Under the pieces are notes generated by a model. That model had not been told where the DNA came from. It made no database searches and worked only from the letters and a program-made list of their open reading frames with translations. This document shows positions 7,948 through 14,997 of a stretch of 25,394 bases of DNA, piece by piece; within the stretch, counting starts at the first letter, position 1, and the number at the start of each line of letters is the position of its first letter. The stretch is taken from positions 1-25,394 of the forward strand of contig DIZU01000059.1 in assembly GCA_002429455.1 (NCBI GenBank). The letters run 5' to 3'. Source of the stretch: Methylotenera sp. UBA6020 (GTDB lineage Bacteria; Pseudomonadota; Gammaproteobacteria; Burkholderiales; Methylophilaceae). Both the position numbers and the translations under genes were made by a program.

Positions 7948-9063
7948 TTACTCAAAAAAATCTTTTGCTTTATCTAACCAGCCTTTACTTTTAGGACTAT
8001 GTTTGCCAGAGTCGGCTTGTGTACTTTCGTCAAATTCACGTAAAAGTTCTTTTTGGCGGCTAGTGAGTTTGATTGGTGTTTCTACCACTACATGTACCAT
8101 TAAATCGCCATGTTCCGATGAGCGTAGCGGTTTAATGCCTTTGCCGCGCAACCTGAATACGCCGCCAGTTTGAGTTTCGGCAGGTATTTTCATTTTGGCA
8201 GAACCGCCTAGTGTCGGCACTTCAATTTCACCGCCAAGTGCCGCAGTGCTGAAGCTGATAGGCATTTCACAATGTAAATTACCGCCTTCACGCTGAAAAA
8301 TTTGATGTTCTTTAAGGTGTACTACTACATACAAATCACCTGTTGGTCCGCCATTTACGCCAGCTTCGCCTTCACCACTCAAACGAATACGGTCGCCTTC
8401 ATCAACGCCTGCAGGGATCTTGACTGATAAGGTTTTATTTTGTTTAACGCGGCCAGCACCACTACAAGTGGGGCATGGGTCTTTTACCATTTTGCCGCCA
8501 CCATGACATTTAGGACAGGTTTGCTGTACCGAAAAAAAGCCTTGCTGCATGCGCACTTGGCCGTGACCGGCGCAAGTGGTGCAGGTAGTAGGTTGCGTGC
8601 CAGGACGAGCGCCAGAGCCTTTACAGGTCTCGCATGTGGCTTGCACAGGAATGCGGATTTTAGTTTCAGTGCCTTTCGCTGCGTCTTCTAGCGAGATTTC
8701 CATGTTGTAGCGTAAATCTGCGCCACGATAAACATTGCTGCGTTGACCGCGCGCACCGCCACCAAAAATATCACCAAAAATATCGCCAAATGCATCACCA
8801 AAGCCTGCACCACCAAAACCGCCAGCGCCTGCACCTTGCTCCACTCCAGCGTGACCATATTGATCATAAGCAGCGCGCTTTTGATCATCCGACAACATTT
8901 CATAGGCTTCTTTCGCCTCTTTGAACTGTTCTTCTGCTTTTGGATTGTCTGGATTGCGGTCAGGGTGATACTTCATCGCTAGTTTGCGATATGATTTTTT
9001 GATTTCTTCTTCTGTGGCGTTTTTATTAACGCCCAGTATTTCGTAATAATCTCTTTTGGCCAG
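7948..9063 (-). CDS. dnaJ: Chaperone DnaJ (Hsp40), no canonical start codon in frame
   Basis: DnaJ delivers unfolded proteins to DnaK and stimulates its ATPase in the cytoplasm. The frame encodes 371 residues: J domain with HPD at 33-35, a Gly/Phe-rich linker, four CxxCxGxG zinc repeats ([32 protein letters not shown], about 144-204) and the C-terminal substrate domains. The expected N terminus [16 protein letters not shown] is present, but its only possible in-frame initiator is CTG at 9061-9063, with TAA at 9070-9072 just upstream. The nearby ATG (9065-9067), six bases after GGA, opens a different frame that stops after 13 residues. Deleting one copy of the tandem TGGC at 9059-9066 would restore ATG GCC AAA AGA. 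Starting at the internal ATG 8976 would remove half the J domain and is unlikely. The gene follows dnaK, with a hairpin between. Confidence 0.9.
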
Positions 9064-9108
9064 CCATTTTTAATCCAATTACTTGAGTGAAACATGTTGA
9101 GTTAGGCA

Positions 9109-9143
9109 AAGACAAAAGCCACGAAGGACGTGGCTCTTGTCTT
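9109..9143 (-). terminator. Strong hairpin between dnaK and dnaJ
   Basis: Arms 9109-9123 and 9129-9143 pair over 14 of 15 positions with loop AAGGA; the only mismatch is A9116 with C9136. On the transcribed strand the 3' arm ends in GGCTTTTGTCTTTG, giving a short U-rich tract. It probably terminates or attenuates transcription after dnaK, so that dnaJ is made at lower level, or it protects the dnaK mRNA 3' end. Confidence 0.75.
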
Positions 9144-9169: not shown

Positions 9170-11101
9170 TTAGTCTTTTTTAACTTCTTCAAACTCTGCA
9201 TCCACTACTTCAGCATCCACAGTTTTCTCACCTTGCGATTGAGCACCACCAGCGTTTGCACTTTCAGTGTTTTGCTGCGCTTGTTGTTCAGCATAGACTT
9301 TTTCACCTAGCTTTTGTGAAGCTTCCATCAAGGCATTGGTTTTGGCTTCAATGGTATCTTTGTCATCCGCTTTCATCGCTTCTTCAACGTCTTTAAGCGC
9401 AGTTTCAATCGCTTCTTTTTCAGCAGCATCTAATTTATCGCCATGTTCAGTCATTGATTTTTTCACTGAGTGCACCATGCCATCTGCCGCATTGCGTGCA
9501 TCTACAAGTTCGCGTAACTTGCGATCTTCATCGGCGTATTTGATAGCGTCTTCTTCCATCTGTTGGATTTCAGCTTCAGATAAACCACTATTTGCCTTGA
9601 CGGTGATTTTGTTTTCTTTGCCAGTGGCTTTGTCTTTGGCTGATACATGCAAAATACCGTTGGCATCAATATCAAAGGTTACTTCAATTTGCGGCATGCC
9701 ACGTGGTGCTGGTGGAATATCGCTTAAGTTGAATTGACCCAAGCTCTTATTCGCAGATGCCATTTCACGTTCACCTTGCAGCACTTGAATAGTCACGGCA
9801 TTTTGGTTGTCGTCAGCGGTTGAAAACACTTGTGATGCCTTGGTAGGAATCGTGGTATTTTTCTTGATGAGTTTAGTCATCACGCCGCCAAGTGTTTCAA
9901 TACCAAGTGATAATGGTGTCACATCAAGTAACAACACATCTTTCACGTCGCCTTGTAGTACGCCACCTTGAATCGCCGCGCCTACAGCCACGGCTTCATC
10001 TGGGTTTACATCTTTACGTGGTTCTTTACCAAAGATTTCTTTTACTTTTTCTTGCACTTTTGGCATGCGGCTTTGACCGCCAACCAAAATCACGTCAGTA
10101 ATGTCATCAATAGAAACGCCAGCATCTTTAATCGCAATACGACAAGGTGCAATGGTGCGCTCGATTAAATCATCGACCAGCGACTCTAATTTTGCACGCG
10201 TGATTTTTACTACCAAGTGTTTTGGGCCAGTCGCATCGGCGGTGATGTATGGCAAGTTCACTTCAGTTTGTTGTGCGCCGGATAGCTCGATTTTAGCTTT
10301 TTCAGCGGCTTCTTTTAAGCGTTGTTTCGCCAATAAATCGTTACGTAAATCCAGGCCATTTTCTTTTTTGAACTCATCAGCCAAAAAGTCGATCAGGCGG
10401 TTATCAAAGTCTTCGCCGCCTAAGAAAGTATCGCCGTTGGTTGAAAGCACTTCAAACTGGTGTTCGCCATCAATGTTAGAAATTTCAATGATAGATACAT
10501 CGAATGTACCGCCACCTAAGTCGTACACGGCAATTTTACGATCGCCTTCTTGTTTGTCTAAACCAAATGCCAGCGCAGCTGCAGTAGGCTCGTTGATGAT
10601 ACGTTTTACTTCCAAACCGGCGATACGGCCAGCATCTTTAGTCGCTTGGCGTTGACTATCGTTAAAGTAAGCCGGTACTGTAATCACGGCCTCTGTTACT
10701 TCTTCACCCAAATAATCTTCAGCGGTTTTTTTCATCTTACGTAAAACTTCTGCTGAAATTTGTGGCGGCGCCATTTTTACGCCACGCACTTCTACCCAGG
10801 CATCGCCGTTATCAGCTTTAGCAATGGTGTAGGGCATCAAGCCAATATCTTTTTGTACTTCTTTTTCTTCGAATCTACGGCCAATTAAACGTTTCACTGC
10901 ATATAGTGTATTTTTTGGATTAGTCACTGCTTGGCGCTTAGCCGGTGCACCTGCCAAAATTTCGCCATCTTCTTGATAGGCGATGATAGAAGGCGTAGTG
11001 CGTGTGCCTTCAGAATTTTCAATCACGCGTGGTTTGCCGCCTTCCATCACAGCGACGCAAGAGTTTGTAGTGCCTAAGTCAATCCCAATAATTTTTCCCA
11101 T
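9170..11101 (-). CDS. dnaK: Chaperone DnaK (Hsp70)
   Basis: DnaK is the ATP-driven Hsp70 that binds hydrophobic segments of unfolded proteins, working with DnaJ and the nucleotide exchange factor GrpE. The 643-residue product has the nucleotide-binding domain ([14 protein letters not shown] start, here [16 protein letters not shown]; then [13 protein letters not shown] and [11 protein letters not shown]), the linker [13 protein letters not shown], the substrate-binding domain and a C-terminal tail ending EFEEVKKD. The start is ATG at 11099-11101, with AAGGA seven bases upstream; an in-frame ATG further up (11143) would add 14 residues unlike the family. Co-transcription with grpE from the sigma-32 promoter at 11918-11946 is likely. 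Confidence 0.98.
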
Positions 11102-14159: not shown

Positions 14160-14997
14160 ATGAATCAATGCACTGAGACCATAGAGATATCCGACGATAT
14201 TGCTCAATATCTGGATAAGCACGACCCGTTCCAGCATGCCATGGGCATGCAAGGTAAAGTATTTCGAGATGTTCCTGGACGTAAAACAATTCAAGTGCGA
14301 TTAGGCGCAAACAGCTACTTTATCAAGCAGCACTTTGGTGTGGGATGGGGCGAGATTTTTAAGAATTTGTTGAGCTTAAAGTTGCCGATTTTAAGCGCAA
14401 TGACGGAAGTAAACGCAATACATAAGTTAGTCGAGTTGGGTATAGCCACCACGCCGTTAGTGAGTTATGGCGTAAAAGGCTGCAATCCGGCCAAGTTGCA
14501 ATCCTTCATAATCACCAAAGATTTAGGCAATATCGTCTCGCTGGAAGATTTATGCGTCAATTGGAAAGCCAGCCCACCAAGTGAGAAGTTTAAGCGGCAA
14601 TTGATCGTTGCCGTCGCAACAATTGCGCGTAAGTTGCATGAAAATGGCATCAATCCACCGTGATTTTTATATTTGCCATTTGTGCTTAGACGCTAACTTG
14701 CTCGCGCAGAATCAAATCAAACTATATTTGATTGATTTGCATCGCGTGCTGATACATAAAAAAATGTCCGTGAACGACAATATGAAAGATATTGCTGCTT
14801 TGTATTTTTCAAGCATGGATATTGGGCTGACAGCACGCGACATCTTGCGTTTTAAAAAGCACTATTTGCGTGAGGCTGAACGACCAGGCAATGATTTTTG
14901 GCTAAATGTGGAAAACAGAGCCAATAAACTTTATGCTAAATTTCACAGTGATAAATTTCAACAAAGATTATCCGTTGAAAAGTCAGCAATACGTTAA
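14160..14997 (+). pseudogene. waaP: LPS core heptose kinase WaaP, frameshifted at the catalytic motif
   Basis: WaaP (RfaP) phosphorylates heptose I of the inner core with ATP. The first frame (14160-14663) matches its N lobe (SYFIKQHFG with the ATP-site Lys, KNLLSLKLPILSA, SFIITKDLG, SLEDLCVNW) up to ARKLHENGIN, then reads PP-stop. The next frame continues exactly where WaaP should: HRDFYICHLCLD, LIDLHRVLI, and DIAALYFSSMDIGLTARDILRF, ending at TAA 14995-14997. AATCCACCGTGAT would give N-H-R-D with one C fewer, so a single extra C at 14655-14656 breaks the gene at the HRD motif whose Asp is needed for kinase activity in E. coli. Undisturbed, it would be about 278 residues, the normal size. 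All downstream motifs are intact, so the break is recent or is a sequence error. Confidence 0.88.

Follow-up and report, generated by a model that had tools for sequence, protein, structure and literature searches.

A single extra base separates the dnaJ frame from its own ATG in a draft Methylotenera genome and is probably a sequence or assembly error

In the 25,394-nucleotide stretch of Methylotenera sp. UBA6020 DNA analysed here (hereafter the window), dnaJ is separated from its own start codon by a one-base frame break, which comparison with relatives suggests is quite probably an artefact of sequencing or assembly in a gene that is itself ordinary and intact. We favour an error as the most likely source because the same kind of extra base also breaks the essential gene ileS elsewhere in this genome. 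The true dnaJ would then start at the ATG at 9067–9065 and its product would begin M-A-A-K-R-D-Y-Y; the extra G right after the second codon would have arisen when this fragmented draft was sequenced or assembled, and we infer that the living cell lacks this base. The features concerned are as follows.

7948 to 9060, minus strand: DnaJ frame, open from the break onward (GCC AAA AGA ... TAA), 370 residues, with J, Cys-rich zinc and C-terminal domains.
9060 to 9061, minus strand: GG where in-frame relatives are one base shorter, so that either G may be the extra base (from the start alignment and the genus pattern).
9061 to 9063, minus strand: in-frame CTG, the start candidate of the first-pass annotation (from reading the sequence).
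9062 to 9067, minus strand: the gene's native ATG start, followed by GCT as codon 2; the ATG and the GC of codon 2 are kept in relatives.
9026 to 9067, minus strand: 13-codon reading from the ATG at 9067–9065 to the stop TAA at 9028–9026, the outcome of the frame break.
8974 to 8976, minus strand: next in-frame ATG, which lies 30 residues inside the normal protein when M-A-A is counted.
14160 to 14997, plus strand: gene of a Kdo/WaaP-family lipopolysaccharide kinase in which one extra base, at about 14655, divides the coding sequence over two frames (from protein-level comparison and Pfam).

On the minus strand, dnaK (9173–11101) is followed by dnaJ, whose frame is open from a TAA at 9072–9070 down to its own stop at 7950–7948. 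After this TAA the DnaJ frame reads AAA TGG CTG GCC AAA AGA, and up to the conserved K-R-D-Y-Y the broken record offers no in-frame ATG, GTG or TTG; among these codons together with CTG, ATT, ATC and ATA, the CTG at 9063–9061 is the only one present in frame. The first-pass annotation had described both this lack of a standard start and the ATG at 9067–9065 as a 13-codon dead end, and our reading of the sequence bears it out on each point. A product initiated at the ATG at 8976–8974 would comprise 342 amino acids and lack the first 30 residues, which lie in the J domain. A hairpin of 7 pairs (9117–9135) lies between dnaK and dnaJ; the program classes it as a terminator-like element of the plus strand, a T-rich stretch also follows it on the minus strand, and dnaJ may be expressed by read-through past it.

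The frame downstream of the break encodes a type I DnaJ, with a J domain in whose translation the HPD motif is seen, a CXXCXGXG zinc domain and a C-terminal domain; PF00226, PF00684 and PF01556 all score above the Pfam cut-offs in the 370-residue frame. Compared with the best-scoring relative (G021), which served as the reference, dN/dS is 0.021 for 341 codons of the frame; for the 28 N-terminal codons, a stretch that ends with the next ATG, it is 0.061. Synonymous sites are strongly diverged (0.57–0.61 different). The gene is thus under purifying selection, which argues against long-standing decay and fits an error and a very recent mutation equally. The frame break is more than a chance reading, because the 370-residue frame carries three DnaJ domains and an in-frame ATG is found in all 49 other matching genomes of the genus.

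These starts were compared by running a pattern that begins with ATG over all 52 genus genomes returned, 50 of which matched. From the ATG to the end of the motif, the distance is 26 nt in 46 genomes, 29 nt in three (G011, G012 and G054) and 27 nt in the window alone; the 49 other genomes are all in frame, 46 reading M-A-x-K and three M-A-x-x-K. Neither genome without a match contains the N-terminal part of dnaJ, since G008 has no dnaJ match and G066 only residues 230–371, so that dnaJ is present in 51 of the 52 genomes, counting this genome and one partial copy. Of 40 relatives covered by a protein search, 24 belong to the same genus, and 38 of the 40 have dnaJ in full length; G008, of the same genus and 71% complete, yielded a short J protein only, and G030, of the same order and 68% complete, yielded nothing. 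Starts read in 23 genus relatives were all from ATG (21 M-A-x-K-[KR]-D, two M-A-x-x-K-[KR]-D), and six loci from other families gave five M-A-K-R-D and one M-S-K-R-D. Among 80 loci from named genomes, which by their coordinates are partly the same records as the other relatives compared, 78 starts were readable by the motif and all 78 were ATG; L080 and L085 had no motif match. The best named DnaJ matches are mostly from Methylophilaceae, Methylotenera and Methylophilus among them. In public protein data the top match was 93% identical; no DnaJ of the same species appeared among the 120 matches listed, in a database whose clustering at 90% may hide one, and all 120 begin with M, which carries little weight as alternative starts are also written M. 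In one genus relative, G012, a genome in about 50 contigs and 96% complete, dnaJ (L022, contig 39) is interrupted around codon 256 by an in-frame TAG.

When the start of dnaJ in the window was aligned with six relatives, the ATG and the GC of codon 2 aligned and a single G was inserted in the window. Together with the genus start pattern, this indicates that the event was the gain of one base after codon 2, with the native ATG and GCT intact. The first-pass annotation had instead attributed the break to a tandem duplication of TGGC, which does occur twice in a row at 9066–9059. Removing one copy would give M-A-K-R-D, a form seen in five of the six other-family loci and not in the genus: the M-A-K form occurs in none of the 50 matching genus genomes, and we reject the duplication because all 49 readable genus starts are M-A-x-K or M-A-x-x-K. 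The repeat is what GCT GCC becomes on gaining a G, and GCT GCC itself is present in one relative (G017), so from the aligned starts the simplest account is one extra base and not a four-base slippage product. Of the first-pass annotation as a whole, the finding that dnaJ and its own ATG are in different frames therefore stands, as does sequence error, the best supported of the three options it named, while the TGGC duplication falls.

The window belongs to a draft genome that is 77.24% complete and comprises 2.31 Mb in 227 contigs; of 39 sampled contig stretches, 28 contain runs of N, two of these throughout (possibly withheld sequence). We surveyed frame breaks over 529,112 non-N bases, roughly a quarter of the genome, made up of the window, the tail of its contig and 59 other stretches, using as queries ORFs from 1.26 Mb of a one-contig relative (G013) and from 319 kb of other genus loci. 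Across 160 genes (17 in the window; 47,498 aligned amino acids), this survey found four frame changes outside N runs, one across an N run and two genes with internal stops only, whose queries match no Pfam family. A frame change at L162 was not counted, as it lies over tRNA-Gly and tRNA-Tyr genes and its query has no Pfam family match either. The three counted breaks, in a TPR-repeat gene, in ileS and in the Kdo/WaaP-family kinase gene of the window, each show one base too many; in the TPR-repeat gene the extra base does not lengthen a homopolymer, and intact homologues of the kinase are present in relatives. The break in dnaJ, to which the screen is blind because it lies at codon 3, is a fourth +1 break, and none was seen in dnaK. 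An earlier survey had flagged 11 of 124 genes, six for frame changes (four across N runs, the tRNA-region ORF at L162 and the TPR-repeat gene) and five for stop codons only, all near an alignment end. As controls, the genome's own ORFs against G013 gave no frame change in 118 genes and eight rows flagged for stop codons only (seven with stops within 17 columns of an alignment end, the eighth with scattered stops), and G013 ORFs against other relatives gave two flagged rows in 70 genes, including one frame change (in G021). The excess of breaks in this genome is thus modest in number, and its weight comes from ileS.

Isoleucyl-tRNA synthetase is indispensable to the cell. Its gene, matched in 50 of the 52 genus genomes, is split here between two open frames on one contig (C18) by one extra base (L241, about 8380); against the NCBIfam ileS model, the G013 query scores above cut-off and the two pieces align with successive parts. 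Elsewhere in the 77%-complete genome we found no second ileS, the other contigs giving only pieces 28–41% identical. A similar break thus affects, in the sole copy detected, a gene that cannot be lost, so that a one-base break in this record says little about whether a gene has really been lost. In G063, contig 350, ileS also appears split between two open frames, judged by coordinates.

A passage of a study of complete genomes, from which drafts were excluded, expects protein-confirmed singleton frame transitions to be sequencing errors and not genuine indels (PMC3711429). The dnaJ break resembles such singleton errors in its one-base size, in being unshared by relatives, in occurring with several others per genome and in leaving a downstream frame intact and under selection, and from the sequence we found no difference. 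Counting against an error are the extra base of the TPR-repeat gene, which lengthens no homopolymer, the frame breaks in other genomes, also drafts (the frame change in G021, the apparent split of ileS in G063), the possibility that a second ileS lies in the missing part of this 77%-complete genome, and the in-frame TAG of G012, the one observation that favours real dnaJ loss in the genus.

If the extra base were real, the strain would carry a recent one-base loss-of-function mutation in dnaJ, tolerated through a CbpA-like J protein serving DnaK. We consider this main rival unlikely, though appreciably less so than the two readings discussed below. The stop in G012 is compatible with it, and so is the low dN/dS, which a very recent event would explain no less well than an error. 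The genome also holds a candidate substitute: besides one full-length dnaJ it encodes, on contig C82, a CbpA-like protein with a CbpM-like neighbour, and on C199 a further J protein in a 98-residue frame, these two being the only other J proteins detected and neither a second complete DnaJ. The CbpA-like protein combines a J domain with a C-terminal domain and lacks the zinc domain; its best NCBIfam match is curved DNA-binding protein and that of its neighbour is CbpM, both below the model cut-offs. In E. coli, loss of DnaJ is complemented by overexpression of CbpA, according to a passage of PMC4063869. A null mutation is nevertheless hard to square with the sole detected ileS, which is not dispensable, being broken in the same way, and with the retention of dnaJ in nearly every genome of the genus (51/52, including this one and one partial copy).

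The two readings in which a nearly normal protein is made despite the extra base are both very improbable. Translation could begin at the CTG at 9063–9061, the only in-frame near-start codon upstream of the J domain, as the first-pass annotation had considered; it does not pass the comparison with relatives which that annotation itself proposed, none of the starts compared using CTG, the ATG being in frame in the 49 other matching genus genomes and in all 78 readable named-genome starts, and the start alignment places the native ATG just 4 bases upstream. Within this genome, 91 genes with an aligned N terminus gave a single row flagged as lacking ATG, GTG or TTG, which traced back to a penicillin-binding protein gene whose query ORF was too long and in which an in-frame ATG follows downstream, and a literature search on a CTG start of dnaJ returned nothing relevant. 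Alternatively, ribosomes could start at the ATG, read GCT and slip one base into the DnaJ frame, by programmed or tolerated +1 frameshifting. That the four counted breaks are all +1, one of them in an essential gene, would suit such slippage; the dnaJ site is conserved in none of 49 relatives, so that no frame transition is shared as recoding would entail, and by eye the four break contexts have no evident common motif. In programmed frameshifting of the prfB type, a +1 shift restores the frame and a stop codon stands at the shift site; a +1 shift would restore the dnaJ frame too, but here the site is unconserved and has no such stop codon. It is just as improbable that dnaJ, ileS and the two other genes all truly carry their extra bases and that full-length proteins are made from them by efficient +1 slippage. 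CTG initiation and recoding are thus unlikely, and relatives lend them no support.

Read as an error, the break leaves a type I DnaJ (Hsp40) beside dnaK and grpE like those of other Methylophilaceae, with the same domain order, gene neighbourhood and start codon, from which this record differs by one extra base after codon 2. Caution is called for when using such records, as in gene calls on this one dnaJ would come out truncated or be missed and ileS would be divided in two, and breaks of this kind should not be taken as gene loss or unusual initiation. Should the dnaJ break prove real, the strain would provide a natural test of a CbpA-like protein replacing DnaJ outside E. coli.
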